From positions 1 to 43,996 of the IMG/VR virus record IMGVR_UViG_3300042400_000887: a DNA stretch of 43,996 nucleotides; one strand, 5' to 3'. The notes under the pieces were generated by a model. It was not told the DNA's origin, ran no database searches, and was given only the letters and a program-made list of their open reading frames with translations. Position 1 is the first letter of the stretch. Every line of letters starts with the position of its first letter. This DNA is from a virus. The position numbers and the translations under genes were made by a program. Shown piece by piece: positions 13,911 through 41,630 of this stretch.

Positions 13911-13939
13911 TTTACTTTTTCAAGTTAGCGGGGTATACT
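13911..13939 (+). promoter_or_regulatory. Sigma70-type promoter for gp55
   Basis: TTTACT (13911-13916), a 17-bp spacer, then TATACT (13934-13939), upstream of the late sigma factor. The same element occurs before the 22781, 24989, 27103, 34733 and 42367 genes. Confidence 0.85.
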
Positions 13940-13971
13940 TGGTTTACACAATTAAAGAAAGGAACCTCGCT

Positions 13972-14580
13972 ATGTCAAAAGAAGCACCGAAACGCCAGTA
14001 TGTGGACAACGATGCGTTTTTCGAAGCAATGCAAGAACGTATTAAATTAGTCAAAGAAGCAGAAGAACAAGGTTTACCTAACCCTAGAATTACCGATTTT
14101 CTTGGTGAATGTATATTTAAAATTGCAACTAACTTCTCTAATTTAAGAAGTTTCAATAGATACCCATTCAAAGAAGATATGGTTCTTGACGGCGTAGAAA
14201 ATTGTTTAAAAGTCATCGACAATTTTGATGAAAATAAAACGCAAAATCCGTTTTCTTATTTTACACAAATAGTTTATTTCGCATTCCTTCGAAGAATCTC
14301 TAAAGAGAAAAAACAAGTTTATATTCGAAGTAAACTATTAACGTCTAATGCACTGGATTTACAGGAACTTCAAGAACACGACGAACAAGGCGATTTCACT
14401 AATCATTATATTGAATACATGAAAGCATTCAATAATTTTGACGGTTCCGCATTTGAAAAACCTAAAAAAGAAAAAAACTTGAATGCAGCATACAAAGGCG
14501 CTACATTAGATGAATTATGGGAGGAATTAGATGAACTCGACGATACAATCGCTCCTGAGACAAGCGGGAATCCGTCGTAG
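13972..14580 (+). CDS. 55: Late transcription sigma factor (gp55)
   Basis: Directs host RNA polymerase to late promoters with the TATAAATA box, with clamp-assisted activation. The 202-residue protein has the compact sigma2-like core of T4 gp55 (185 residues): DMVLDGVENCLKVIDNFDEN then PFSYFTQIVYFAFLRRISKE, aligning with T4's EMIADGIEASIKGLHNFDE and ITQACFNAFVQRIKKE. The C-terminal LDELWEELDE resembles the sliding-clamp-binding tail SLDFLYE. ATG 13972 follows AAAGGAAC; the longer frame from 13939 overlaps the promoter -10. The next gene starts within its last 50 bases. Confidence 0.93.
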   Translation: MSKEAPKRQYVDNDAFFEAMQERIKLVKEAEEQGLPNPRITDFLGECIFKIATNFSNLRSFNRYPFKEDMVLDGVENCLKVIDNFDENKTQNPFSYFTQIVYFAFLRRISKEKKQVYIRSKLLTSNALDLQELQEHDEQGDFTNHYIEYMKAFNNFDGSAFEKPKKEKNLNAAYKGATLDELWEELDELDDTIAPETSGNPS

Positions 14581-15668: not shown

Positions 15669-17384
15669 ATGCCATTCAATTCTAACCCAGAAAAACAGTT
15701 GGAGGATGCGGCATATGATTTCTTTCATTCGTCGCACGAAGCAATTTATACGGCTGATTTAGACGGTTTAATCCTAGCGTGTAACGCCAGATTAACATTG
15801 CTTACAGGTTATTCAACAGAAGAATTAATCGGTAGCCATACTAGAATGCTTAAATCGGGTATCTACGATAGCGAATTCTATAGGATTATGTGGGATTCAA
15901 TCAAAGAATATGGATTCTGGCACGGTCAGATAACTAATAGACGAAAAGACGGTTCATTCTATACCGTCATTACCACTATCACTTCTGTATATGATGCAGA
16001 CGGGACACCAATTCGATACTTATCGGTTGGTAGCGATATCACACAAATAATTGAAAATAAAAATCAGTTGGAATATTCCGCTTATTATGATAGTCTAACA
16101 GGTATACCCAATCGATTATTGTTATTGGATAGAATTAAACAATCAATTTCCTATTCAAACAGAAACAAAACTTTCGTTGCAATTCTATACATTGATTTGG
16201 ATGGATTCAAAGACATCAATGATAATCTAGGACATGATGTTGGCGATGAATTCCTGAAAGAAATCAGTCAGCGCATGAAATCAATACTCAGGGAATCTGA
16301 TACCATTGCCAGATTGGGCGGCGATGAATTTGTTATCGTATTGAACAATCTAACCGATAAAAAAGATTGTGAAGTACCCGCTAAAAAGATATTACAAATC
16401 TGTTCATCGCCAATAGAAATTGATGGTATATTACTTCAGACATCAGCCAGCATTGGTATCAGTTTTCATCCTGCAGAACCCTATGCAGTAGAAGCGGATG
16501 CATTGATTAGACAAGCTGATCAAAGTATGTACATTTCCAAGATGCAAGGCAAAAATCAATACCATATCTATGATAAGATGGAAGACGATCCAATTACCAC
16601 CAGACAGGAAATGATTGATCAGATTCATCCTTCTTTACAACGAGGTGATTTCTTTCTGTGCTATCAGCCAAAGATTAATATGATCGCGGGTGATTTGATT
16701 GGCGTAGAAGCATTGCTCAGATGGAAACACCCTACTCGCGGTATACTTGCACCAATGGAGTTTTTAAACATTATACAAAAGACGCCGATTGGTGTACAAG
16801 TATCCTGTTGGGTTATAAAGGAAGCATTGCGACAATCTTCAGTCTGGAAAGAAGATGGGTTGTATATACCCATTAGCGTTAATTTAGATCCCGTTGTATT
16901 GAGCCAATGCGATTTTGTTGATAAATTGAATACTATAATCCATCAACGCCCAAATTTTAACCCAGGCGATATTTCGTTTGAAATCCTCGAATCATCAATC
17001 ATAGAAGATAATAAAAGAGTATCTGAAATCATTGACCAATGCAAAGAAATGGGTATTACATTTGGGTTAGACGATTTTGGTACGGGATATTCCTCATTAT
17101 CCCACATCAGAAATCTTTCGATTGATCATATCAAAATTGATAAAAGTTTTGTTATGAATTTAATCCACAACCCAATCGATAGGGTTATAGTGGAAAGTAT
17201 CATCAATCTATCTAACGCATTGAATCTAACTGTTATTGCCGAAGGTGTAGAAACAGCGGAACAAGGCAGAGAACTGATTAAAATGGGATGCACGTATGCC
17301 CAAGGGTACTACATATCAAAACCAATCCTACCCGAGAAAATTCCGTTTTGGCTACGAGAATGGAAACTTTCGTCTTATTTTTGA
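15669..17384 (+). CDS. PAS-GGDEF-EAL cyclic-di-GMP enzyme
   Basis: A 571-residue soluble protein with no membrane segment. A PAS/PAC sensor (about 12-128) is followed by a GGDEF diguanylate cyclase domain (about 135-300) and an EAL phosphodiesterase domain (about 315-565). GGDEF is intact (217-221). An inhibitory RxxD site (R208-D211) lies exactly five residues before it. EAL is intact (347-349), as are DDFGTGYSS, IKIDKSF and AEGVET, so both activities look possible. Such proteins set intracellular c-di-GMP, which controls motility versus biofilm in bacteria. A complete one in a T4-like genome is unusual. A late promoter core precedes it. The PAS ligand is unknown. Confidence 0.95.
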   Translation: MPFNSNPEKQLEDAAYDFFHSSHEAIYTADLDGLILACNARLTLLTGYSTEELIGSHTRMLKSGIYDSEFYRIMWDSIKEYGFWHGQITNRRKDGSFYTVITTITSVYDADGTPIRYLSVGSDITQIIENKNQLEYSAYYDSLTGIPNRLLLLDRIKQSISYSNRNKTFVAILYIDLDGFKDINDNLGHDVGDEFLKEISQRMKSILRESDTIARLGGDEFVIVLNNLTDKKDCEVPAKKILQICSSPIEIDGILLQTSASIGISFHPAEPYAVEADALIRQADQSMYISKMQGKNQYHIYDKMEDDPITTRQEMIDQIHPSLQRGDFFLCYQPKINMIAGDLIGVEALLRWKHPTRGILAPMEFLNIIQKTPIGVQVSCWVIKEALRQSSVWKEDGLYIPISVNLDPVVLSQCDFVDKLNTIIHQRPNFNPGDISFEILESSIIEDNKRVSEIIDQCKEMGITFGLDDFGTGYSSLSHIRNLSIDHIKIDKSFVMNLIHNPIDRVIVESIINLSNALNLTVIAEGVETAEQGRELIKMGCTYAQGYYISKPILPEKIPFWLREWKLSSYF

Positions 17385-30596: not shown

Positions 30597-31379
30597 ATGA
30601 TTACTAAAGAACATATTAAAGCAATTTGTCCAAATAATAAAAACCCAGAGCAAATTGCAGAAGCATTAAACCATGTATTACCTGAATACGACATCGCGTC
30701 TAAAGAACAAGTCGCGTGTTTTATTGCACAAACTGCCCATGAGTCAGGTGAATACAATTGTTTAAAAGAAAACCTAAACTATTCAGCTGATGGTTTATGT
30801 CGAGTATGGCCGAAACGTTTTCCATCGAAGGATGCTGCCGCGCCCTATAACCGCAACCCTGAAAAGATTGCCAATAAAGTCTACTGCGACAGAATGGGTA
30901 ATGGCTCAGAAGCATCCGGTGATGGGTTTAAGTTTCGTGGACGTGGTGTGATTCAGCTTACGGGTAAAGACAACTATTCTAAATTTGCCAAATCAATTGA
31001 TAAGTCGTTGGATGAAGCAGTTGCATTATGCGAAACGCTTGAAGGTGCAATTATTTCTGGTTGTTATTTCTGGCAAGCAAATAAACTAGACCGATTTGTA
31101 CAGAAAAAAGATTTCGTTGGATTGACAAAAGCCATTAATGGCGGAACGCATGGTTTAGATGATAGAACCAACAAATATAAAAAAGCATTGGCTGTATTGG
31201 ATTTTGATGTATTAGAGAAACCATCAAAACCTTCGCCAGAACCAGTTAAAGTTGAAGAATCTACAGAAGAACCCGATTACGCAGATTTGGCGTTAAAATA
31301 TGCCAATGAAGTATTTGATGACATCAGTAAAGGCGTTGATGATGCATTAAGTTCTATTACTAAATTTTTCCACGATTAA
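30597..31379 (+). CDS. GH19-type endolysin
   Basis: Cell-wall hydrolase for lysis. The GH19 (chitinase/lysozyme) catalytic domain spans about residues 5-200 of 260: FIAQTAHESGEY contains the catalytic Glu (E49), LNYSADGLCRVWPKRF is the substrate-loop region, and FKFRGRGVIQLTGKDNY (111-127) is the classic motif. The C-terminal 55 residues are a Pro/Glu linker and an amphipathic helix (KYANEVFDDISKGVDDALSS), unusual for GH19 and possibly a wall- or membrane-contact tail. No signal peptide, so it should need a holin, which is found at 34221-34532. Confidence 0.93.
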   Translation: MITKEHIKAICPNNKNPEQIAEALNHVLPEYDIASKEQVACFIAQTAHESGEYNCLKENLNYSADGLCRVWPKRFPSKDAAAPYNRNPEKIANKVYCDRMGNGSEASGDGFKFRGRGVIQLTGKDNYSKFAKSIDKSLDEAVALCETLEGAIISGCYFWQANKLDRFVQKKDFVGLTKAINGGTHGLDDRTNKYKKALAVLDFDVLEKPSKPSPEPVKVEESTEEPDYADLALKYANEVFDDISKGVDDALSSITKFFHD

Positions 31380-31427: not shown

Positions 31428-31580
31428 ATGAAACAAAAAAAATTAATTAAAAAAATATATTCTGCTTGTTTAGATAATGATATAGAAAAACAAACAGAAC
31501 TAAAATTAAAACAGTATAAAAAGATTCTTAAACGCAAAGAAAAGAATAAACCATTCAATAATAAATGGACTGTAATTTAG
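31428..31580 (+). CDS. Small basic protein, 50 residues
   Basis: Starts at ATG 31428 behind AAGGGAC; 50 residues, about 40% Lys/Arg (MKQKKLIKKIYSACLDN and KQYKKILKRKEKNK). It overlaps the cyclase start at 31565 by 16 bases, or by one base if the cyclase begins at GTG 31580, so the two are translated as a pair. Function unknown; nucleic-acid or membrane-surface binding is possible from charge alone. Confidence 0.6.
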   Translation: MKQKKLIKKIYSACLDNDIEKQTELKLKQYKKILKRKEKNKPFNNKWTVI

Positions 31581-33637
31581 TGAAAAAAATAGTATTATCG
31601 CCTTGGTTGGCATTATTAACATTAAGTTTAATTATTGGATTGAGAGTATCTGATCCTGATTTTATACAGAGTATTAGACTTAGATATTTTGATACTCTAA
31701 TTCTGTCTCAACCAATCAAAGAAGATAGCCAAGTTGCCATTGTTAATATAGATGATGAGTCTATACAGAAATATGGTCAATTCCCGTTTCCCCGCGATGT
31801 TTATTCAAAAATAATTACCGACTTATACGACCATGGTGCTGGTCTTGTTGTTTTTAATATTTTCACACCCGACAAAGATAGATTTGGTAAAGATGCAGTA
31901 TTCAAAGATACGTTACAGAAATTTCCTGTTATCATTCCACAAGTTGGTACTAATGATAATCTTGATTTTGGTATCCCTTTCAACCCAGGCGTTGCCGAGA
32001 TTGGTGAATCCGCGAGATTATTCGCACCGAGTTATCGAACAATACAACCTAGTATCTACAGAGAAACAATTGGCGGGATCGGAGTTATCAACACCTTGCC
32101 AGAGATTGATGGCGTTGTTAGACGAATGCCAATGCTGGTCACAGCAAATGATGTCCTGTACCCTTCAATCGCACTTGAAACGCTCAGAGTTGCTTCAGGT
32201 GATGTCAGCTTTCAAGTTAAGTCCAATGAATCTGGAATTGAAGCAGTACGAATACCACAATATGGAAAAATTGACACGGATGAATTCGGTAGAATCTGGA
32301 TTGATTGGTCACGCGAACCCAAACAATATTCTCTCCAGCATATACCAGAATCCTTCGATGGAAAGATTGTCATTGTTGGACTTTCAGCAAGAGGACTTAA
32401 TAACCCTGTTGGAACAGCAAGAGGCGGAAGATTTCCACATGACGTTCAGGGTGTCGTTTTAGAAACTATCATCAGTAACGCTAATATTGCTAGACCTGAT
32501 TGGTCGACTATTGCTGAAATTGGATTTACGCTACTATTAAGTATTATTTCATTATTATTAATTAGGTGGAAATATGGGTTTATACCTGTTATTGGAAGTA
32601 TTGCCTCTATTCATTTTGGTGCTAGTTATATTTTTAACAATTACCATTACCTTCTGGATGCTACGATTCCTATTCTGGGTATTTTTCTGGTCTATAGTCA
32701 TAGTTTTACCGTCAAATTTGTTACCGAACTAAATGCTAAATTACAAATAAAAAAACAATTTGGCGGGTACTTATCGCCGATTATGGTAGAACGATTACAG
32801 AAGAATCCTGAATTAATTAAATTGGGCGGCGAACGCAAAGAATTGTCTATTGTTATGACGGATCTCAGAGGATTTACGACATTGGGAGAATCGTTTGGCG
32901 AAGACGTTGAAGGGTTAACCTCTATTATGAATGATTACATGACCGCTATTTCAGAACCAGTATTAAAGAACGAAGGTTGTATCATAAAATTTATCGGCGA
33001 TGCTTCGCTCCATGTACACGGCGCGCCATTAGATGACAATCAACACCATTACAATGCGGTTAGAACGGGGTTAGCGATGTTAGATGCAGCGGAAGAATTC
33101 AATAAAGAATTAGAAGCAAAAGGTAAACCAAGAGTAGGTATGGGCGTTGGCGTTAATGCCGGACAAACTCTAATTGGTAACATTGGTTCTAAAACAAGAT
33201 TTGGGTATGATGTATTAGGAGATAGCGTGAGCACAGCTGCGCGACTTGAAGGGCAGACTAAACCATACGGTGTTAAAATTATTATCAGCGAATCAGTTGC
33301 TAAGGAAGTTTCTGATTACTATTTGACGTTAGAACTAGACATCGTTGCAGTCAAAGGGAAATCAATCGGTACAAGGATTTACACAGTGTTACCAATAACG
33401 GACGCTAATGGAGGACTTGACTATCTGTTAGCAGAAAAACAACATAACATTATGCTTGATTTATATCGTTCGCAAAGATGGATAGAAGCATCAATTATGT
33501 GCCACAAATTGATCGGCGAATTTGATGGTAGTATGGACGCTTATTACGAAATGTTAATTCATAGAATAGGCGAATATCAGCAAGATAACAAATTCCCTAA
33601 AGATTGGGATGGTACTTATATTAGTAAAACAAAATAA
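31565..33637 (+). CDS. CHASE2-domain class III nucleotide cyclase
   Basis: A 690-residue membrane signalling enzyme. TM1 (about 10-27) leads to a periplasmic CHASE2 sensor (about 35-310), then three TM helices (about 317-334, 338-357, 366-382), then a cytoplasmic class III cyclase domain (about 425-610). Metal ligands D433 (MTDLRGFTTLGE) and D479 (KFIGDA) are present. The adenine-selecting pair K475 and D549 fits adenylate cyclase. The transition-state Arg (R560 in AARLEG) is present, but the usual Asn is Ser (S556; GDSVSTAAR), so activity may be reduced or altered. A short C-terminal helical region follows. Host-type signalling genes of this size are rare in phages. Confidence 0.93.
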   Translation: MDCNLVKKIVLSPWLALLTLSLIIGLRVSDPDFIQSIRLRYFDTLILSQPIKEDSQVAIVNIDDESIQKYGQFPFPRDVYSKIITDLYDHGAGLVVFNIFTPDKDRFGKDAVFKDTLQKFPVIIPQVGTNDNLDFGIPFNPGVAEIGESARLFAPSYRTIQPSIYRETIGGIGVINTLPEIDGVVRRMPMLVTANDVLYPSIALETLRVASGDVSFQVKSNESGIEAVRIPQYGKIDTDEFGRIWIDWSREPKQYSLQHIPESFDGKIVIVGLSARGLNNPVGTARGGRFPHDVQGVVLETIISNANIARPDWSTIAEIGFTLLLSIISLLLIRWKYGFIPVIGSIASIHFGASYIFNNYHYLLDATIPILGIFLVYSHSFTVKFVTELNAKLQIKKQFGGYLSPIMVERLQKNPELIKLGGERKELSIVMTDLRGFTTLGESFGEDVEGLTSIMNDYMTAISEPVLKNEGCIIKFIGDASLHVHGAPLDDNQHHYNAVRTGLAMLDAAEEFNKELEAKGKPRVGMGVGVNAGQTLIGNIGSKTRFGYDVLGDSVSTAARLEGQTKPYGVKIIISESVAKEVSDYYLTLELDIVAVKGKSIGTRIYTVLPITDANGGLDYLLAEKQHNIMLDLYRSQRWIEASIMCHKLIGEFDGSMDAYYEMLIHRIGEYQQDNKFPKDWDGTYISKTK

Positions 33638-33638
33638 T

Positions 33639-33869
33639 ATGAAACATTTGAAAGACTTGAATTGGGCAGGAACTGTCTGTTTTATTATTGCCGGATTATG
33701 TTTTGCATTACATATAGACCCATATGAAAAATTTGCTTTTATATTTTTCTTATTGGGGCATTCTATCTGTTTAATTGCAGCAAAGAAAAGAGATATACAT
33801 TCGTTAATCGTCAGATATTATTTTTTTGTAGTCATTGACTGTATAGGGATATATCGCTGGTGGATTTAA
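33639..33869 (+). CDS. Small integral membrane protein
   Basis: A 76-residue protein with three hydrophobic segments (AGTVCFIIAGLCFALHI; KFAFIFFLLGHSICLIAA; YYFFVVIDCIGIYRWWI) starting at ATG 33639, one base after the cyclase stop. Probably co-expressed with the cyclase and possibly a partner or regulator in the membrane. No family recognised. Confidence 0.7.
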   Translation: MKHLKDLNWAGTVCFIIAGLCFALHIDPYEKFAFIFFLLGHSICLIAAKKRDIHSLIVRYYFFVVIDCIGIYRWWI

Positions 33870-33875
33870 TAAATA
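33868..33875 (+). promoter_or_regulatory. Late promoter core AATAAATA
   Basis: Overlaps the 33639 gene's stop and ends 26 bp before ATG 33902, in the standard late spacing. Confidence 0.55.
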
Positions 33876-33901
33876 CAATTTAATAAACTTGGAATTTAAA
33901 C

Positions 33902-34192
33902 ATGGCAACAAAACGTAAACCAAAGAAAGAGAAAGTAGCGGAAGAATTGGCGGTTAAACCAGTTCAGGTTAAACAATCTAAACCAAGAAAACCAAAGACA
34001 GTTAAACCAACGGAAACTGTTTCAATTGTTGAAGAAATCATTGAACCGATTGTAGAACAGGTAGTTGAAGAAGCGGTTAATGAAGTAGTTCCTAGTAAAT
34101 ATAATCCTAAAAAGATCGCGGTATTGATTACTGGAGGTATTATCGCTGGCGGCGTATACGGATTTGATTATTTAATTTCTTTGATTAAATAA
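33902..34192 (+). CDS. Lys/Pro-rich membrane-anchored protein
   Basis: A 96-residue protein with a basic, Pro-rich N-terminal half (MATKRKPKKEKV; KQSKPRKPKTVKPTE) and a central acidic amphipathic helix (VEEIIEPIVEQVVEEAVNEV). One C-terminal TM segment (IAVLITGGIIAGGVYGFDYL) follows. It sits next to the holin, convergent with it, and has a late promoter, suggesting a lysis or envelope role such as an antiholin or spanin-like partner. This is an inference. Confidence 0.7.
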   Translation: MATKRKPKKEKVAEELAVKPVQVKQSKPRKPKTVKPTETVSIVEEIIEPIVEQVVEEAVNEVVPSKYNPKKIAVLITGGIIAGGVYGFDYLISLIK

Positions 34193-34195
34193 AAA

Positions 34196-34216
34196 GAAGG
34201 GGATTTATTCCCCTTC
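34196..34216. terminator. Bidirectional terminator
   Basis: Stem GAAGGGG/CCCCTTC with loop ATTTATT, between convergent genes ending at 34192 (+) and 34221 (-). On the minus strand it is followed by TTTTTATTT, on the plus strand by GTTCTTACTTC. Confidence 0.85.
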
Positions 34217-34220
34217 GTTC

Positions 34221-34532
34221 TTACTTCTTGAATGCTGTTACGCCAAGAATGGCGCCGAATGCTAAATGCATCATGCCACCGCCTTGTAATGTAACACTTT
34301 GATATGCATCAATGTTTTGACCTGGATTCAAATACTGTAATACGTTATAGATTACAGGACCAATTACGAAATCAAAAATGTTGATGATCAAGTACCCTAT
34401 TCCCATCATCGGTTTCCAGGTTCTATCCATAAAATCTCCATTTTGTATAGATTGTTCAATCTGTTCTTCAACCACTTCGCTTAAATCAACATCCTTTTTA
34501 ACTCGCGTTCTTCTCGCCTTTACTTCTGCCAT
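34221..34532 (-). CDS. Holin (3-TM, GTA-holin-like)
   Basis: A 103-residue protein. After a charged N-terminus (MAEVKARRTRVKKDVDL) and an amphipathic helix comes DRTWKPMMGIGYLIINIFDF, then a second hydrophobic span, then LQGGGMMHLAFGAILGVTAF. The W(K/R)PMM...FDF and GGG(M/L)xHxAFGAILGV motifs are those of the holins of T4-like aquatic phages, placed in the 3-TM gene-transfer-agent holin family. It would permeabilise the inner membrane to release the endolysin at 30597. It is transcribed opposite to its neighbours, with its own TATAAATA late promoter. Confidence 0.8.
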   Translation of the reverse strand: MAEVKARRTRVKKDVDLSEVVEEQIEQSIQNGDFMDRTWKPMMGIGYLIINIFDFVIGPVIYNVLQYLNPGQNIDAYQSVTLQGGGMMHLAFGAILGVTAFKK

Positions 34533-34555
34533 AGTTTCCTCCTTATAAACTGTTT

Positions 34556-34563
34556 TATTTATA
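34556..34563 (-). promoter_or_regulatory. Late promoter core TATAAATA (perfect)
   Basis: On the minus strand the exact T4 late consensus TATAAATA, 23 bp before the holin ATG. It is the only perfect copy seen in the window and fits lysis timing. Confidence 0.8.
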
Positions 34564-34578
34564 ACAATAACGCAGGTC

Positions 34579-34607
34579 TTTACTTTTTCAACAACTCGCG
34601 GTATACT
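34579..34607 (+). promoter_or_regulatory. Sigma70-type promoter upstream of the flagellin-like gene
   Basis: TTTACT (34579-34584), 17 bp, TATACT (34602-34607). A TTATCAGT/ACTGATAA stem (34612-34619, 34629-34636) immediately follows. Confidence 0.83.
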
Positions 34608-34631
34608 TGATTTATCAGTTGAAGTTTGACT

Positions 34632-34684
34632 GATAAATAATCTTAGAAGTGATGTTGATGGTGTCTACGTTACACCGCACTTCT
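34632..34684 (+). promoter_or_regulatory. Late core GATAAATA and 5' leader hairpin of the flagellin-like gene
   Basis: GATAAATA at 34632-34639 is a second, late-type start signal. It is followed by a two-tier stem: AGAAGTG/CACTTCT (34645-34651, 34678-34684) enclosing GGTGT/ACACC. The leader is about 125 nt from the sigma70 start, long for this phage, and suggests post-transcriptional control. Confidence 0.55.
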
Positions 34685-34732
34685 ACTTTAGTAAAAACAT
34701 TTTTCTTAAATTTTTAAACTAAAGGTGATATT

Positions 34733-35530
34733 ATGCCAGCTCCATTAACAATGAGTTCAGTTGTTTTACAATCTATCAACTCAACAAAAGAAGCAACAAA
34801 TCGTGTACAAACTGAATTGACCACAGGCAAGAGAACTCTTGATGCTGGTGAACAAGGTGTCGTAACTCGTTTGTCTTCTCAAGTAAATGGTTATGCCGCT
34901 GCACAAAATAACATTCAGAAATCACAAAACGTTATCAATGTAGCACAAACAGGTCTTTCAGCTATTTCAGATATTCTGTCGCAAATGAAAGATTTGGCGA
35001 ATAAAACTAACGACAATACTATGTCGGATGCTGATAAAACTAAATTGAATCAAACTTTTCAATCTCTATTGAAACAGGTTGACGATTTAGCGTCATCTAC
35101 GCAGGTTGACGGCGTTAGCGTATTGTCAAGTTCAGCAACTGATTTAAAGGTACAAACTGGTTTGACTTCAACTGATCAAATTACAGTGACTGCACAAAAA
35201 TCAGACACTACAACATTAGGTATCAACACTCTTGATATCAGTGCCACCGGCGATGCTGCTGCTGCAGTTGATGCGCTACAAACTGCGATTGATTCTGTTT
35301 CGTCAAGTCAATCAAGTTTAGCTGCTGATAAAATCGGTTTATCTGCGAGAAATAAAACTGTTCAGTCTATTTCTAGCAATCTGGAGGATACAATTTCTTC
35401 GATAGAAAAACCAAATGCTGAGCAACTTCAAATGGATTTACAAAAGTTGAACAATCAGCAATCTATTAATTATTATTTGATTAATCAGATGAATCAACAA
35501 GCACAATCAATGTTGACAATCTTCCGTTAA
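34733..35530 (+). CDS. Flagellin-like protein
   Basis: A 265-residue protein with the D0/D1 architecture of flagellins. The N-terminal helices include INSTKEATNRVQTELTTGKR and NVINVAQTGLSAISDILSQM, with the hallmark QxGLSAISDIL and an LANKTNDNT turn. There is a short beta middle and C-terminal helices with SLAADKIGLSARNKTVQSIS and QQAQSMLTIFR. It lacks D2/D3 and canonical flagellin SGLRIN and LL-R termini, so it is divergent. Outer domains absent, no signal peptide. It might be exported by the host flagellar system, jam it, or be a virion protein. ATG 34733 follows AAAGGTGA. A FliS/FlaF-like gene follows. Confidence 0.82.
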   Translation: MPAPLTMSSVVLQSINSTKEATNRVQTELTTGKRTLDAGEQGVVTRLSSQVNGYAAAQNNIQKSQNVINVAQTGLSAISDILSQMKDLANKTNDNTMSDADKTKLNQTFQSLLKQVDDLASSTQVDGVSVLSSSATDLKVQTGLTSTDQITVTAQKSDTTTLGINTLDISATGDAAAAVDALQTAIDSVSSSQSSLAADKIGLSARNKTVQSISSNLEDTISSIEKPNAEQLQMDLQKLNNQQSINYYLINQMNQQAQSMLTIFR

Positions 35531-35539
35531 TCGGTTTAA

Positions 35540-35572
35540 GGGGAGTGAAATATCTCCCCTTTCTTTTTCTTT
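35540..35572 (+). terminator. Hairpin terminator, repeated GGGGAG type (copy 4)
   Basis: GGGGAGTGAAATATCTCCCC followed by TTTCTTTTTCTTT, ten bases after the flagellin-like stop. Identical stem and loop to copies 1 and 2. Confidence 0.9.
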
Positions 35573-35583
35573 ATGAGTAAATT

Positions 35584-35946
35584 ATGAATACTAGAAAAGC
35601 ATTAAACGTATATGCAGAGATTGATAGTAACCTTTCGGGCGCATCATTCGAGAAGAAGTGGTTTGAATCTGTAATCATGGTACTACAACGAGTACAGAAC
35701 GGTTATTATAATCCGGTCGAATCGCATATCAAATTGATTGAAGTGTGCGATGGGTTAGGTTGGATCCAAGAGAACTTAAATGAAAAATTGAGTTCACAAC
35801 ACAGAACATTATTGAAAAGCATCTATAGCACTGCTATTCAAATTATCAATGGCGCAATCGCCACCAAGAACTTCCAGTATTTGGAAATTGTCGTCTCCTC
35901 TTTAAGAACTGTAATAGAACCTTACAATCAGCAAAATAATTCTTGA
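35584..35946 (+). CDS. Flagellin-chaperone-like protein (FliS/FlaF type)
   Basis: A 120-residue all-helical protein directly after the flagellin-like gene. The N-terminal KALNVYAEIDSNLSGASFE, followed by VIMVLQRVQNG, a LGWIQENLNEKL helix and LEIVVSSLRTVIEPY, follow the helix pattern of flagellin chaperones. These are FliS (AYQQVD...) and the alphaproteobacterial FlaF (SPRELEA...LWTIFQ). Both are about 120 residues. Similarity is by pattern only, and context is the main support. It would bind the C-terminus of the neighbouring flagellin-like protein. Confidence 0.5.
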   Translation: MNTRKALNVYAEIDSNLSGASFEKKWFESVIMVLQRVQNGYYNPVESHIKLIEVCDGLGWIQENLNEKLSSQHRTLLKSIYSTAIQIINGAIATKNFQYLEIVVSSLRTVIEPYNQQNNS

Positions 35947-35971
35947 CTTCTTAGTCGCACTAGAGTAAAAT
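35943..35971 (+). promoter_or_regulatory. Sigma70-type promoter TTGACT-17-TAAAAT
   Basis: TTGACT (35943-35948) overlaps the stop of the FliS/FlaF-like gene. Spacer 17, TAAAAT (35966-35971). A sister promoter lies at 36778 and a lone -35 at 37081. Confidence 0.8.
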
Positions 35972-36019
35972 TGAATCATAGGTTGATCGCAGCGGTTGAC
36001 TCTGTTACTGGAGATAATA

Positions 36020-36235
36020 ATGAAAAGTACGAAATTATACGATGAATCAATTTATCCATACCTAGGAATTCATCGATCAGGTTGTCCTGTGGTATTATTT
36101 ACTGAACGTAATCAAGGAACAGTTGTATCAGTAAGTCCGCAAGCTGATGACACTCAACATCTAGGTGAATTCCGAAAAGATTGGATAATGGATAATTTTG
36201 ATAAATTTATTGGTAGAATAGTGTTGGAGAATTAA
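36020..36235 (+). CDS. Unknown 71-residue protein
   Basis: Starts at ATG 36020 behind TGGAGAT. The upstream in-frame start at 35996 has no SD. MKSTKLYDESIYPYLGIHRS then PVVLFTERNQGTVVSVSPQ suggest a small beta protein of a phage-common type. No function known. Confidence 0.65.
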   Translation: MKSTKLYDESIYPYLGIHRSGCPVVLFTERNQGTVVSVSPQADDTQHLGEFRKDWIMDNFDKFIGRIVLEN

Positions 36236-36236
36236 T

Positions 36237-36578
36237 ATGAACTTAGAAGATATTTTAAACTGTTTGAATGATGGTTACGAATTTGATTCATACCAACGAA
36301 CTGTTGTTCCTGCTGCATTAGCACAAGATTTAATTCTTAAAGCGGCAAATTTACATAAACCTAAATGGATTAATTCTGAAAAACGATTGCCAGAGTTGAA
36401 CCGCGAGGGAATTTTTGAACAATCAGAAAATGTTTTAATTTATGAGTCTGGGAATTTTTGGGTTGCTTATCTAACTTTTAGAACGTATAATGAATATAGG
36501 TGGATTCTGGATGCTTATCACGATATTCCAATAGAAAAAACATATTGGATGCCGCTACCTAAAAACCTTGAGAATTAA
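36237..36578 (+). CDS. DUF551-containing protein
   Basis: A 113-residue protein. The C-terminal part has the DUF551 pattern: KWINSEKRLPEL, a central ENVLIYESGNFWVAYLTF strand set, and TYWMPLPKNLE at the end. DUF551 proteins are frequent in phages and prophages, with unknown function. N-terminal 45 residues form a separate helical region. It starts one base after the previous stop. Confidence 0.75.
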   Translation: MNLEDILNCLNDGYEFDSYQRTVVPAALAQDLILKAANLHKPKWINSEKRLPELNREGIFEQSENVLIYESGNFWVAYLTFRTYNEYRWILDAYHDIPIEKTYWMPLPKNLEN

Positions 36579-36579
36579 T

Positions 36580-36771
36580 ATGAAAGCGATAATTGATTTG
36601 GAAGATTTAAAATCATTCATAAAAACTGTATCTGATTATCCAGATGAATGGTATGGACCACAAAATTATATGACAGGTGACTGTATTTGTGAGTTTTTAG
36701 AATGGAATAATAAAAAGAAAATAGCAAAAGAATTTAGAAGTTTTCTTGATGAGGAAATAGGTAACGAATAA
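36580..36771 (+). CDS. Unknown 63-residue protein
   Basis: ATG 36580 lies immediately after the DUF551 stop. An acidic alpha protein (MKAIIDLEDLKSFIKTVSDY; WYGPQNYMTGDCICEFLEW) with no recognised motif. Confidence 0.6.
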   Translation: MKAIIDLEDLKSFIKTVSDYPDEWYGPQNYMTGDCICEFLEWNNKKKIAKEFRSFLDEEIGNE

Positions 36772-36777
36772 AAGTAC

Positions 36778-36806
36778 TTGACTTCCTAGTCCTAGTCTAG
36801 TAAAAT
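36778..36806 (+). promoter_or_regulatory. Sigma70-type promoter TTGACT-17-TAAAAT
   Basis: TTGACT (36778-36783), 17 bp, TAAAAT (36801-36806), upstream of the 36894 gene. Nearly identical in form to the one at 35943. Confidence 0.8.
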
Positions 36807-36893
36807 TGATCTATAGGTTGGGTTGACCACCCTGACTCTTATCGAAGATTAACGGTATAATGAATCATACTTAAAGAAAAACTGGAGAGAAAA

Positions 36894-37073
36894 ATGAACT
36901 TTGATAAAGATTTTACCGACCTGACTATGTTCAATTTTGGCGTTGTTGTTGTGTATAACGAATCTATGCAGATTAACCTACCAAAAACTGGTTATCCGTT
37001 GTATGATGCGTTTGGTTACAAAATTGGGTTTTCGTATCCACGCTGGTTCAAAAATCTTTTTAAAATTGTTTAA
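36894..37073 (+). CDS. Unknown 59-residue protein
   Basis: ATG 36894 behind CTGGAGAG. MNFDKDFTDLTMFNFGVVVV then FGYKIGFSYPRWFKNLFKIV, aromatic and hydrophobic with an amphipathic basic C-terminus. Last plus-strand gene before the curli operon. A lone -35 (TTGACT at 37081) follows its stop. Confidence 0.6.
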   Translation: MNFDKDFTDLTMFNFGVVVVYNESMQINLPKTGYPLYDAFGYKIGFSYPRWFKNLFKIV

Positions 37074-37080
37074 AAAGTGC

Positions 37081-37086
37081 TTGACT
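37081..37086 (+). promoter_or_regulatory. Orphan promoter -35 (relic)
   Basis: TTGACT in the same post-stop context as 35943 and 36778, but no -10 lies 17 bp on (ACAGAT at 37104-37109). The last curli-operon gene's stop begins two bases later, as if the promoter had been cut at the cassette boundary. Confidence 0.5.
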
Positions 37087-37087
37087 T

Positions 37088-37549
37088 CTAATTACCTTGC
37101 GTTACAGATATCGGCGCGCACCCACCAACGGTAGAACAATTAAAATTGATTGAATAATATTGACTGGAATTGCCAGATTGGGTTAAATTTACCTCAACTG
37201 GCGTTCCGGATAATGAAATAATTGCGGTATGGTCGCCAATACCTTGTTGTAATGTATTAACAGACTTATTACTTCCCGATAACGTTACGTTCAATGTATG
37301 ATTACCGGAATCTTTCTGTTGTGCTATTACAGAGTTATTGCTACCATTATTAGTAACATCGATCTGCTTTGTGCCTGTACCCATTTCCTCTAAATCATAA
37401 TAATTATAATTACCATTGGTATAAGCGTTAACAGATTTATTTGTGTTACCTTCTTGCGTAACAACTGTTTCATTATATGCGCCAATTTGTTCGATGTATA
37501 CATCTGATGCATAAACATTGAAACTAATTAATAATAATATCCATTTCAT
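37088..37549 (-). CDS. Curlin-repeat secreted protein (CsgA/B-like) 2
   Basis: A 153-residue secreted protein. The signal peptide MKWILLLISFNVYA is followed by curlin repeats with Q-x4-N-x5-Q spacing, for example YIEQIGAYNETVVTQEGNTN, then N/G/T/S-rich strands (SNNSVIAQQKDSGNHTLNV; GSNKSVNTLQQGIGDHTAI). Curlins stack as a beta-solenoid amyloid on the cell surface. Two Cys near the C-terminus (NCSTVGGC) are uncommon in curlins. It is the last gene of the operon, and its ATG overlaps the FecR-protein stop. Confidence 0.82.
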   Translation of the reverse strand: MKWILLLISFNVYASDVYIEQIGAYNETVVTQEGNTNKSVNAYTNGNYNYYDLEEMGTGTKQIDVTNNGSNNSVIAQQKDSGNHTLNVTLSGSNKSVNTLQQGIGDHTAIISLSGTPVEVNLTQSGNSSQYYSINFNCSTVGGCAPISVTQGN

Positions 37550-38634
37550 TTTTGTTTCAATACTCCATTATTTTGTTTTATATTAATAATATTCCCACCT
37601 GGACTACCATCACCAATTAATATTGATGCTGGTACATCATCTTGGATAATTGTAATCAGACTATTAGAATTGTATCCTTGAGTTTTGACTTCGGAATAAT
37701 GTTCCACTCCTGATACCCTAAACGCGATACCAGAACCCTTTAATTGGGTTTCATTAGTATCAGGTCTCTGCCACAATACACAGACATTAGTTGTGGGATT
37801 GCAGTTGGTTTTATTGGCATAATCAATCATCTGTAATAATCTAGCATCTTCGGTTTCATTCAAACTATTGGCAATTTTACCCGCCATGCGTCTAGATGCA
37901 TCCGCGTCATCGAATTCTGCATCTTGTTCTTGTTTGGTCTTAGATGATGCCTTTACTGCCTTCTGTACTTCTGCTGGCTGAACAATGATCAAATGATTAC
38001 CAATATTCCCTTCGACTGTATTGATAATAGCGGGTATTGTCGGTAATCTAGTTGCACTTTGTACATAAGTTGCCTGAAATGCTTGGTCTAATGATACTTT
38101 ACCTGCCAGAGTTTCAACATCAATCTTACCGACTTTACAAGTATTTTCTTCCAACTCATATTCCTTTACTTTTTCATCGGGTTTACAGCTCGGTAATAAT
38201 ACGATTAATGATTGACCTGTTTCGTCGATTGTCATTGTGAAATCGGTACCACGAACAGCAATTGTAGCAGTTGGCGTTTGTATACCGACTTGTTGTGGAT
38301 TATTCTTAGCAATTTGACCCGATGCATATCTGACAGTACCCATTGCCACTTTTAATACCAATTTACCTGCATCACTTTTCTTAGTATCAAACACAAAATC
38401 ATCAATCAACAATTTACTATTCTCGGTGATTTTCGCCTTTGTATCATCTTTGAATACGATATTACCAACACAATTACCTGTGATATAAGTATCCATACTT
38501 TCAATGGTTGAACCTTTATCGCCCGGTAATTTTTGTTTATTTCGTTCTATCTGACATCCTGTGCCTTTAGATTCAACCACAGAACCAATATCTGCTATCA
38601 CATTAAGTGATACCAATATCAACAACCATTTCAT
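37546..38634 (-). CDS. Secreted FecR-domain protein
   Basis: A 362-residue protein with signal peptide MKWLLILVSLNVIA, almost identical in layout to that of the next curlin gene. Residues about 25-190 form a FecR-type beta domain (FVFDTKKSDAGKLVLKVAMG, VRYASG, TPTATIAVRGTDFTMTI). The distal part has charged helices and a final strand region (NIINIKQNNGVLKQ) rather like a curlin repeat. FecR domains occur in cell-surface sensing and in secreted matrix proteins. Here, within the curli operon, it may anchor or nucleate fibres. Five or more Cys are visible. Confidence 0.8.
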   Translation of the reverse strand: MKWLLILVSLNVIADIGSVVESKGTGCQIERNKQKLPGDKGSTIESMDTYITGNCVGNIVFKDDTKAKITENSKLLIDDFVFDTKKSDAGKLVLKVAMGTVRYASGQIAKNNPQQVGIQTPTATIAVRGTDFTMTIDETGQSLIVLLPSCKPDEKVKEYELEENTCKVGKIDVETLAGKVSLDQAFQATYVQSATRLPTIPAIINTVEGNIGNHLIIVQPAEVQKAVKASSKTKQEQDAEFDDADASRRMAGKIANSLNETEDARLLQMIDYANKTNCNPTTNVCVLWQRPDTNETQLKGSGIAFRVSGVEHYSEVKTQGYNSNSLITIIQDDVPASILIGDGSPGGNIINIKQNNGVLKQK

Positions 38635-39413
38635 TATCGTGCAATGGCAGTTTGTGGGTTAACAATCGCACTAGAACTGGTTCTGACAGTAACTGTATTA
38701 TGGTCACCTGTAGTTCTAATATCGACGGTAGTATCATTAGTGCCTTGCTGTTGCACTATATTGGAGTTATAATCACCCGCAATGTATTGTTTCAAATCAT
38801 GACCGAATGCACCAGCAGAATCTAATTGTTCATCAATTAGAATATTAGTATTACCCGTAATTGCTATATTGGATTTACCATTAGAACTTTTTAAATTATT
38901 GGTAATCTGATTTGAATTGCCCGTAGTAACAATTGTGCTGGTAATATCGCTCCCCAGTAATGTCTGTAGTATTAAATTAGTATTACCGGTAATTGTTTCT
39001 GAGATAATATTTCTAAGATTATTTGTATTAGCATCACCTAATAATAACTTACTCATATTGTCATTACCTGACACTGCACTAGTATATTGGTTATTACCGC
39101 CTTTTATATTATACTGCGCCCAGTTATTAGTACCATGTTGGGTGATGGTAGCTGTATTTGAACTACCGTTAATTGACCCATAATTCAAAGAACTTGGAGC
39201 ATCAGGCGTTAAAGTGGTAATATTATCAGAATTTGATACGCTGATATTACCATTAGAACCACCCACATTATTAGTTCCGCCAACCTGTTCAATAGTAATC
39301 GTATTAGTGTTTCCGACTTGTTCTATGTAAACAAGATTTGGATTTGTGGCGTTGTCTGCGTTTATGTTTTGACTTATCACAAGTAGCATAATCAAACTTA
39401 TTAGATTTTTCAT
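38634..39413 (-). CDS. Curlin-repeat secreted protein (CsgA/B-like) 1
   Basis: A 259-residue protein with signal peptide MKNLISLIMLLVISQNINA and about ten imperfect repeats rich in G-(N/D)-x-N, such as YIEQVGNTNTITIEQVGGTN with exact Q-x4-N-x5-Q spacing, and TGNTNLILQTLLG. This is the beta-solenoid amyloid pattern of CsgA/CsgB. It starts within the last 110 bases of csgG in a different frame, and its stop overlaps the next ATG. It could be the main fibre subunit or nucleator. Confidence 0.86.
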   Translation of the reverse strand: MKNLISLIMLLVISQNINADNATNPNLVYIEQVGNTNTITIEQVGGTNNVGGSNGNISVSNSDNITTLTPDAPSSLNYGSINGSSNTATITQHGTNNWAQYNIKGGNNQYTSAVSGNDNMSKLLLGDANTNNLRNIISETITGNTNLILQTLLGSDITSTIVTTGNSNQITNNLKSSNGKSNIAITGNTNILIDEQLDSAGAFGHDLKQYIAGDYNSNIVQQQGTNDTTVDIRTTGDHNTVTVRTSSSAIVNPQTAIAR

Positions 39414-40305
39414 CTATAATTTCCTTGTTTAAATTATCATCTTGAAGTTTTACATGCTCTTGGGTTTCAATAACTTCCTTTTCTTTCATTATAATTGGCG
39501 TCATAGATTCAGTTTTATATGACCAATGACCTTTTCTAATACCTTCTTTAATAGTTTCCAACACTGCAGATTGGATCGCTTTATTGGTGGCACGATTGAT
39601 ACTTTCATTAATAGAGCCGCCAATCTCTGCTTCAACTGACATAGTACCGGCATCCATGAATTTCAATACACCAATTTTATCCAAATAACTCAGCACAGTT
39701 TTGGTAATTGTAACTGATGTTAATACTTCGCCTGTCGTTACCGATACTGTTCTGAGATTAATAGTCACTGTATCGCTTTGATATTGAGTTTCGCCGCCAA
39801 TACCAAAAAATCGAACACCAGCGCCGCCTGTTACTGTATTTGAATCGTAACCCGTAATCGAACCTTCAAAAATGATGCCAGCAAATATCATGGGTGGTAG
39901 ATGTTGGGCATCTTTACCTTGATACTGTTCCCGCATTTGTCGAATCATCTGACGTTCTTTGATTAGATTTTCTAACCCAACTCGTTCAACCACAGTAAAC
40001 CATCGACCATCACCCACATCTTGTAATGCTTTGATTAGGTAACCTTCTCCGCCTTGCGTAACAGCAGAACTCAATGAAGCAATATTAGGTATTGATTTGC
40101 GCTGACCCGTTTTATCTTGAAATGCATACACGCCAACGGGTATTGGTCCACCCGATGGTGGTAATAGTACATTTTCTTCTTTATGCAAAAAGGTTGATTT
40201 TTCTACGGCTGGATCATCAAATTGTTCGCCAGTAATCAATTTGTGGATAGCACTACTAGTAGCACATCCTTGTAGTAATAAAAACAATAAAAATAATCGT
40301 TTCAT
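39304..40305 (-). CDS. csgG: Curli secretion pore lipoprotein CsgG-like
   Basis: Outer-membrane nonameric channel that exports curli subunits. A lipoprotein signal ends LLQGC (C14). The conserved CsgG domain runs to about residue 265: PVGVYAFQDKTGQRKSI, WFTVVERVGLENLIKERQMI, AGIIFEGSITGYDSN, then RTVSVTTGEVLTSVTITKTV. E. coli CsgG is 277 residues. This one is 333, adding about 65 residues whose last 36 (Lys/Arg/His-rich) overlap the curlin gene in another frame. It lacks CsgE in the operon. Ribosome site AAAGGAT. Confidence 0.94.
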   Translation of the reverse strand: MKRLFLLFLLLQGCATSSAIHKLITGEQFDDPAVEKSTFLHKEENVLLPPSGGPIPVGVYAFQDKTGQRKSIPNIASLSSAVTQGGEGYLIKALQDVGDGRWFTVVERVGLENLIKERQMIRQMREQYQGKDAQHLPPMIFAGIIFEGSITGYDSNTVTGGAGVRFFGIGGETQYQSDTVTINLRTVSVTTGEVLTSVTITKTVLSYLDKIGVLKFMDAGTMSVEAEIGGSINESINRATNKAIQSAVLETIKEGIRKGHWSYKTESMTPIIMKEKEVIETQEHVKLQDDNLNKEIIDEKSNKFDYATCDKSKHKRRQRHKSKSCLHRTSRKH

Positions 40306-40314
40306 TTTAATCCT

Positions 40315-40785
40315 TTAAAATGCGAAAGAACCTGCTGGCACTTTCATAGTAGTAGTCTGGGATAGATTACTGTTATTGGTAATATCAATGATGATCAATC
40401 CAGCGTCAGAACCAGCACCCAAAGACCAAGATACTGAATTTCCACCTAAATCTGGTATAGAACCACAGACTATGCCAGTAACTGTACAAGTAGCACCATC
40501 AGAAAACATAGAATCGGTCAATTGTTTTGCTAACTGCGAATAGATTCTTGATTCAAGATTAGCTAGAAATTTCGCTTGTGGGGTATTCAATGCTGCTGAT
40601 TCTGCCTCAGCTTTTATAGCATCGGTTGCTGCTTTATTCTTATCAATGGCTTGAGTTTCCAATTGATTGATGGTTAGAACGTGAGAACTGTAACCTGATC
40701 CAGAGAATGAAGGCGAATTGAATGTGTGCGTTAATTCTGCAGAATGAACAGAAGTGCTTAATAATAGAAGTAGCCAATATCTCAT
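40315..40785 (-). CDS. csgF: Curli assembly factor CsgF-like
   Basis: A 156-residue secreted protein. Signal peptide MRYWLLLLLSTSVHSA, then ELTHTFNSPSFSGSGYSSHV, matching the CsgF N-terminus (TFxNPxFGG) that plugs into the CsgG pore and links it to the fibre. A helical FLANLESRIYSQLAKQL segment and a beta C-terminal part (SDAGLIIIDITNN; TTTMKVPAGSFAF) follow as in CsgF. Two Cys (CTVTGIVC) are extra. It is coupled to the upstream membrane-protein gene by ATGA and precedes csgG. Confidence 0.85.
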   Translation of the reverse strand: MRYWLLLLLSTSVHSAELTHTFNSPSFSGSGYSSHVLTINQLETQAIDKNKAATDAIKAEAESAALNTPQAKFLANLESRIYSQLAKQLTDSMFSDGATCTVTGIVCGSIPDLGGNSVSWSLGAGSDAGLIIIDITNNSNLSQTTTMKVPAGSFAF

Positions 40786-41042
40786 TTCTTATTCTCCTTT
40801 TGAGCATTCTCGCGCATCTGCAAAACAGTATTGAGTTTTGCTGTAAGTCGAAGTAAATCGTTGTCGAGTAACCGTATTCTATCAATAAGCGTAATCAATT
40901 CTTTTGACGCTTCGCCGAGAACTGGGTTAATTTCATTAATGGTAAAATCCCAAACATGTTTGACCATTTTCAGCATAAAAAATGATGAAACTATTGGAAA
41001 ACCATACTTTGAAATAAGTTCTGATAACTGAGTAATGTCCAT
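40782..41042 (-). CDS. Small single-TM protein (BhlA/UviB-like) 3
   Basis: An 86-residue protein from ATG 41042; the longer frame from 41096 overlaps the previous gene. One hydrophobic segment (YGFPIVSSFFMLKMVKHVW) lies near the N-terminus and is followed by a long coiled coil (ITLIDRIRLLDNDLLRLTAK). This is the layout of BhlA/UviB-type holin-like proteins. It is the third of three similar genes. Confidence 0.65.
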   Translation of the reverse strand: MDITQLSELISKYGFPIVSSFFMLKMVKHVWDFTINEINPVLGEASKELITLIDRIRLLDNDLLRLTAKLNTVLQMRENAQKENKK

Positions 41043-41046
41043 AAAT

Positions 41047-41331
41047 TTAATCTCTGCGGCAATCGTTCTTTCCGTCTGATCTAGCAATCCTGTCAAGATC
41101 AGGTCTCAATCCCATAACAGATGATATTGTTACGTCAATTTTAATCAACTCATGGGAACATGTTTTAACACGATTCTCTAATGCCATTACAATAGACGCT
41201 AATGTTCTGACTGAAGTGATTATGTCGCCAAGCACAAACTTTAATGCCGTAAAAATAAACCCGCCAGCAGCACAACTTCCTAATATTGGCGTCACGACAT
41301 CAGAAAAAAACTTTACGTATTCTTGATCCAT
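41047..41331 (-). CDS. Small single-TM protein (BhlA/UviB-like) 2
   Basis: A 94-residue protein with MDQEYVKFFSDVVTPILGSC then a hydrophobic GGFIFTALKFVLG segment and a coiled C-terminal region (LASIVMALENRVKTCSHELI). It has the same layout as the flanking proteins at 41331 and 40782, so the three look like tandem duplicates. Its ATG overlaps the previous stop (TAATG). May form inner-membrane assemblies for the operon. Confidence 0.65.
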   Translation of the reverse strand: MDQEYVKFFSDVVTPILGSCAAGGFIFTALKFVLGDIITSVRTLASIVMALENRVKTCSHELIKIDVTISSVMGLRPDLDRIARSDGKNDCRRD

Positions 41332-41630
41332 TACGATGCCTTATTCATTACTTGGTGAACTTGATGGTGTATTTTTTCTGGGAGTGGTTCAACGTACAAC
41401 GATTTTGAGACTAGTTGGTCGAGTTCAAGAACATCTATATTCATCTGTTGAACTCTACCATCCATCGATTTAATCAATCCAGTAATTTTTTTAATTGATT
41501 TGACGATTGATCCTAGCACTAAGTTCACTGCTTGCATGATGAACCATCCGCACACGACTGCTAATGCGATTGGGAATCCACATGCTTCAACTAACTGGAA
41601 GAAATCAAAATTAGGTATACCAATGTCCAT
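41331..41630 (-). CDS. Small single-TM protein (BhlA/UviB-like) 1
   Basis: First gene of the minus-strand operon, 99 residues. A hydrophobic helix (CGFPIALAVVCGWFIMQAV) sits after a short acidic N-terminus (MDIGIPNFDFFQLVEA), followed by a long amphipathic coiled coil. The G-F-P-I-A motif and single TM are typical of BhlA/UviB bacteriocin/holin-like proteins. The start lies 17 bases after copy 3 of the 63-bp repeat. Role with curli genes unproven. Confidence 0.65.
   Translation of the reverse strand: MDIGIPNFDFFQLVEACGFPIALAVVCGWFIMQAVNLVLGSIVKSIKKITGLIKSMDGRVQQMNIDVLELDQLVSKSLYVEPLPEKIHHQVHQVMNKAS

Follow-up and report, generated by a model that had tools for sequence, protein, structure and literature searches.

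We found a flagellin gene, followed by the gene of a probable FliS-like chaperone, beside the lysis genes of a virus record which, judged from its gene content, is a T4-like myovirus, an aquatic phage of the Melnitz/HTVC008M kind. The record, of 43,996 bases, was analysed over its whole length and is called the window hereafter. We tentatively propose, with a probability of roughly 40%, that the pair is a private flagellin-chaperone set produced late in infection, which would be exported via the host flagellar machine and would alter the filament. The two genes are as follows.

34733 to 35530, + strand: flagellin, 265 aa, D0/D1 only (Pfam, PDB match, AF2 model, VIA)
35584 to 35946, + strand: probable FliS-like flagellin chaperone, 120 aa (AF2 single-sequence model, Foldseek, VIA, profile comparison)

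The flagellin and its downstream partner

Both open reading frames, of 265 and 120 residues, are present where the original prediction had placed them. The 265-aa product matched the Pfam profile Flagellin_N (PF00669) with 68.3 bits (cut-off 26.6, E=9.4e-19) and Flagellin_C (PF00700) with 21.7 bits, just under the cut-off of 23. The N-terminal domain is then recognised outright and the C-terminal one narrowly missed by its profile, while the full-length alignment and the fold agree with a C-terminal D1/D0 domain. Against PDB sequences, the alignment with Caulobacter filament proteins covers almost the whole product (E=7e-17), and its full-length matches include short flagellins made up of D0/D1 only, Caulobacter FljK for example. 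The AlphaFold (AF2) model, built on an alignment of 16 flagellins, has a pLDDT of 89 and presents the canonical order N-D0, N-D1, short beta, C-D1 and C-D0, with D2/D3 absent, in accordance with the earlier claim of D0/D1 helices at both ends around a short middle. The nearest structures in VIA are solved flagellar filaments, with Z values of 20-23 over ~260 residues, and not the non-flagellin coiled coil that had been named as the contrary outcome. On profile, alignment and model, the 265-aa protein is a bacterial flagellin, complete but unusual.

The best bacterial relatives are found in Alphaproteobacteria (81 bits, compared to 60 bits in Gammaproteobacteria), with 25-30% identity. The phage flagellin forms, in a tree of 215 sequences, a long branch beside a large clade (support 0.967), which holds most of the alphaproteobacterial sequences of the tree. 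It keeps 60% of 52 conserved positions, compared to a median of 94% for the others; only 2 of the 214 other flagellins are lower, with a minimum of 58%. Among the lost positions is the near-invariant D-x-D-x-A-x-E stretch before C-D0, at the C-D1/C-D0 junction, these conserved residues being typical of flagellins but not strictly defining them. The hydrophobic positions of D0 have been retained, as has the complete D0/D1 fold. Considering that the model is standard but many conserved positions are lost, the flagellin fold appears to have been kept while its interfaces drifted, and the losses, DxDxAxE included, make co-assembly with host flagellin doubtful.

The closest known type is that of Caulobacter FljK, FljL, FljM and FljN, which are also D0/D1 only, about 270 aa long and homologous over the full length, and the C-terminus ends in LFR/IFR in both. 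However, the phage protein stands outside their clade at the identity and with the losses given above, and its partner is FliS-like, not FlaF-like.

The lost residues at the C-D1/C-D0 junction would also fit a subunit that enters the filament without extending it. This belongs to a rather unlikely alternative, in which the pair is a dead end or decoy. Its target would be the FlhA export gate, which it would occupy, the filament tip, which it would cap or poison, or host FliS or regulators that sense flagellin, which it would titrate; motility would thereby be turned off and energy saved. The retained D0 hydrophobic positions and complete D0/D1 fold argue against a dead-end subunit.

The 120-aa gene starts 53 bases downstream of the flagellin gene on the same strand, which is the position of a FliS-type gene. 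Searches of Pfam, PHROGs and PDB with its product gave nothing significant at the sequence level, and PF02561 (FliS) was not matched in Pfam. The AF2 model from the single sequence is an all-helical bundle, as had been foreseen, of fair confidence (pLDDT 77, pTM 0.71). In Foldseek, ranks 1-5 were FliS, with TM 0.73-0.83, probability 1.0 and E about 0.02-0.05. In VIA, ranks 1-9 among PDB structures were FliS chaperones, with Z from 14.4 to 11.4 and the next unrelated entry at 11.1; for helical bundles such Z values are weak alone, and their weight lies in the FliS entries standing above unrelated bundles. In a global comparison with the FliS profile, the protein was first of 113 small phage-region proteins and aligned over its whole length, a weak sequence signal that gives the top rank only in this global comparison.

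Compared to the FliS structures of H. pylori, B. subtilis and Aquifex, the model shares the four-helix bundle and the short N-terminal helix, and the 120-aa length and the position downstream of flagellin are shared as well. However, the identity is 9-16%, under all sequence thresholds, and the GG and W that FliS proteins conserve are missing. The FlaF profile (PF07309) gave no match at E<=10, its score was under that of most shuffled sequences, and the protein ranked 54 of 113 small proteins, i.e. in the middle of the list. After these three tests the FlaF identity was dropped. The protein is therefore probably a FliS-like fold in the FliS position, while its sequence does not place it in the FliS family; of the two chaperones originally named, FliS is favoured by fold, structure lists and profile rank. 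Both proteins are strongly diverged, and a private chaperone would make sense if the flagellin had drifted beyond what host FliS can serve. A poison, in contrast, would not need a chaperone of its own.

Phage type and late expression signals

The T4-like genes of the window comprise terminase, sheath, tail tubes, portal, gp23, UvsY and the gp55 late sigma factor, and clamp, clamp loader and SbcCD-like genes are also present. Homologues of gp17, gp18, gp19, gp20, gp23 and gp55 are all found in the record, which is the gene set of a T4-like myovirus. The portal is 56% identical to that of Methylophilales phage Melnitz and up to 86% identical to those of uncultivated viral contigs. A PAS-GGDEF-EAL protein is encoded at 15669-17384 of the window, preceded at a distance of 38 bases by a late promoter core. 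Sought for host prediction, no tRNA or RNA family was found in the window. The expression signals are listed below.

13939 to 14580, + strand: gp55-type late sigma factor, candidate reader of the late promoters (phrog_234, E=7.4e-51)
34556 to 34563, - strand: late promoter core of the holin, TATAAATA (motif scan)
34632 to 34639, + strand: late promoter core of T4 type, GATAAATA, with the flagellin start about 100 nt further on (ATAAATA pattern)
34644 to 34685, + strand: stem-loop close to where the flagellin transcript should begin (leader RNA folding, z=-2.6 vs shuffles)
35538 to 35571, + strand: intrinsic terminator between the flagellin and FliS-like genes (8-bp stem then T-rich tract, -13.5 kcal/mol)

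The tail-tube gene is preceded by the same late core as the flagellin gene. ATAAATA occurs at 12 sites in the window, rarer than in shuffles, and 10 of the 11 sites on the + strand lie at most 121 bases upstream of an ORF, compared to an average of 26% for 7-mers of equal composition, a contrast that is still large considering that the ORF list was drawn up by hand. The original prediction had placed both an early-type promoter and a late-type core before the flagellin gene. The placement of ATAAATA before ORFs speaks for the late core; the early-type promoter does not stand, as the 17 sigma-70-like sites of the region are within what chance would give (15.2 expected). The identities proposed from the letters alone were thus sound for the flagellin and for FliS, and FlaF and the early promoter fell away.

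The flagellin gene has a good ribosome site, and the FliS-like gene lies beyond the terminator with a weaker start. The codon usage score of the flagellin gene is 0.667, compared to 0.716 for gp23, 0.77 for the sheath, 0.651 for the tube and 0.53-0.64 for the others. From the late core, ribosome site, codon usage, terminator and weaker FliS-like start, much flagellin and less chaperone are predicted late in infection. These motifs suggest that the flagellin gene belongs to the late regulon of the phage, with the late structural genes. Late and strong expression would also fit the titration proposed for a decoy.

The late promoter class and a codon usage like that of tail and head genes are consistent with another explanation, an unlikely one, in which the flagellin is a late structural part of a virion appendage or of an independent phage filament and the FliS-like protein its assembly chaperone. 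The divergence from host-type flagellins points in the same direction, and so do the bacteria that the nearest isolates infect (OM43, SAR11), to our knowledge non-flagellated; this counts at the same time against export through a host flagellum, for which host identity matters. However, FliS is an export chaperone not known as a virion assembly factor, relatives with the same virion genes are without flagellin, and the gene lies in a lysis/surface module, outside the tail and head modules.

The slot beside the lysis genes

The neighbourhood of the pair contains the following genes.

30597 to 31379, + strand: endolysin (GH19-like), lysis region (phrog_181, E=5.6e-69)
31565 to 33637, + strand: CHASE2 adenylate/guanylate cyclase, conserved in the phage group (Pfam)
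33902 to 34192, + strand: 96-aa basic protein with a late core of its own at 33868 and, by eye, probably one membrane segment
34221 to 34532, - strand: holin of the GTA_holin_3TM type, adjoining the flagellin gene and divergent from it (homologue in relative L093; weak Pfam match)
37088 to 40785, - strand: curli-type operon of CsgF, CsgG, curlin-repeat, FecR and curlin-repeat genes (Pfam)

The Pfam match of the holin itself is weak (E=0.031), but it is 42% identical over 71 residues to a protein of L093, a T4-like relative, and that protein matches GTA_holin_3TM at 3e-7. The 96-aa protein has no family match above threshold. The cyclase is 66% identical to those of the relatives L084/L085 and has homologues in Melnitz and HTVC008M, which both also present the same curli operon. 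Over 31565-41630 of the window, the orientation of the curli block with respect to the cyclase is the reverse of that in L084/L085 and Melnitz.

Genes with clear phage relatives flank the pair, to its left the cyclase and the endolysin, to its right the curli operon together with three small genes, and the GC content is even across the flagellin region and matches the flanks. This makes an assembly chimera joining bacterial and phage DNA barely credible: the absence of the segment from all relatives examined would fit it, but phage-related genes border it left and right, the holin immediately upstream among them, and the flagellin gene carries the phage's own late core.

Beside the same holin, L093 encodes a Gram-negative porin and an OmpA-family protein (L093:17259-18995), from which we infer that the slot takes surface-protein cargo. 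We therefore regard the region as a cargo slot by the lysis genes, the cargo of which is often a cell-surface protein. The genomic context, i.e. the late promoter, the adjoining holin, the nearby curli genes and the porin/OmpA genes of the relative, favours a late remodelling of the host surface. By sequence reading only, a GroEL-like chaperonin gene directly follows the cyclase in three relatives (L085:12043-13659, L087:13028-14644, L092:1060-2676), and a further one, L088, has a signal-peptide-bearing probable outer-membrane protein slightly beyond it.

Close homologues of either protein were not found in INPHARED, nor by a peptide-pattern search of IMG/VR, and the pair was absent from every related phage record examined, many of which are fragments; blank homologue searches without a positive control show little. 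FliS was found neither in viral contigs by profile patterns nor in phages by tblastn, and a BFVD search gave no convincing viral flagellin. INPHARED matches to Clostridium flagellin were not counted, being unannotated, in several cases short and possibly host contamination. Two BFVD entries from uncultured Caudovirales, A0A6J5L8W0 and A0A6J5LDL0, are flagellar hook/basal-body-like and FliS-like and may be a related system. As the pair was found in no relative examined, conservation is unusable as evidence of function. Its presence in one phage only, across INPHARED, the IMG/VR patterns and the related records, would agree with host cargo captured without a selected role in this phage. This is improbable: the late promoter core, phage codon usage, long divergence and retained chaperone partner argue for a maintained function.

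Proposed role and other phage-borne flagellins

In the filament-altering reading, which we prefer, a phage of the Melnitz/HTVC008M kind would have acquired a flagellin and a FliS-type chaperone and placed the flagellin in its late regulon. Transcription directed by gp55 would then yield abundant flagellin, while the FliS-like protein, at a lower level, would prevent its polymerisation in the cytoplasm and deliver it to the export gate of the host flagellum. Added at the filament tip, the phage flagellin would give a bare D0/D1 surface, altered packing and possibly arrested growth. The payoff may be a cell surface altered before lysis, against flagellotropic rivals or for control of dispersal or motility. 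The analysis establishes the two genes and their folds, the motif of a late promoter, the signals for expression and the setting among phage genes; we infer that the two products bind, that the host machine exports the flagellin, what becomes of the filament and what the phage gains.

The drift of the flagellin would be explained as well or better by a poison or decoy, or by a virion appendage, than by an altered filament. The GGDEF-EAL protein, with its late core, and the cyclase are both plausible controllers of motility and would fit a decoy. A wider formulation is possible, which we hold to be less likely than not: with the help of a private chaperone the phage would produce a flagellin filament of its own late in infection. 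This filament would either be a phage-type continuation of the host flagellum or stand alone, outside the cell or on the virion, and would come from a swappable surface-protein slot on the holin side that holds flagellin here and porin/OmpA elsewhere. If a late remodelling of this kind is true, a phage in its lytic cycle can remake the surface of the cell shortly before it bursts, and the flagellin and FliS-like genes are a small, testable two-gene unit for it.

The pelagimyophages and Melnitz belong to the same phage group and share the CsgF-CsgG-curlin-FecR-cyclase genes (PMC7029224, PMC9004378). In contrast to the window, flagellin or FliS was not found there (PMC7029224, PMC9004378), and here the flagellin island lies between the cyclase and the inverted curli block. 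Flagella go unmentioned in the papers on the curli-bearing pelagimyophages, on Melnitz and on pelagiphages (PMC7029224, PMC9004378, PMC9599517).

A phage-encoded flagellin is described for TldR-carrying Enterobacter prophages (phage FR-phi), the FliCP of which replaces or changes the host filament (PMC13418256), a precedent for the altered filament proposed here. Those prophages are temperate and lambda-like, with large D2-D4 domains in FliCP, and use an RNA-guided repressor of host fliC, whereas here the phage is T4-like, the flagellin D0/D1 only and its control apparently a late promoter core; a phage chaperone is not mentioned in the available text, in contrast to the FliS-like partner here (PMC13418256). 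No TnpB/TldR-like gene was recognised nearby, the larger ORFs around the flagellin gene being cyclase, curli, FecR and lysis genes. As far as we found, the TldR prophages are the only published case of a phage-borne flagellin, and a late-controlled flagellin in a T4-like phage, paired with a FliS-like protein, is new.

Flagellin genes were also found in five further viral contigs (L377:7878-8690, L378:7851-8666, L373:7896-8771, L374:7869-9086 and L379:7917-8846), near phage-type genes for DNA polymerase III alpha-like and RecJ-like proteins, terminase/portal/major head protein and endolysin. These are unrelated phages, whose flagellins are placed in the tree near Lachnospiraceae or other Firmicute types, and the five genes are apparently unpublished. 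The PHROG family phrog_16088, annotated as of unknown function, consists of flagellins, the L374 protein matching it with E=6e-59. With this family and the five contigs, phage-borne flagellin recurs, and its occurrence in unrelated viral contigs suggests an overlooked recurring theme.
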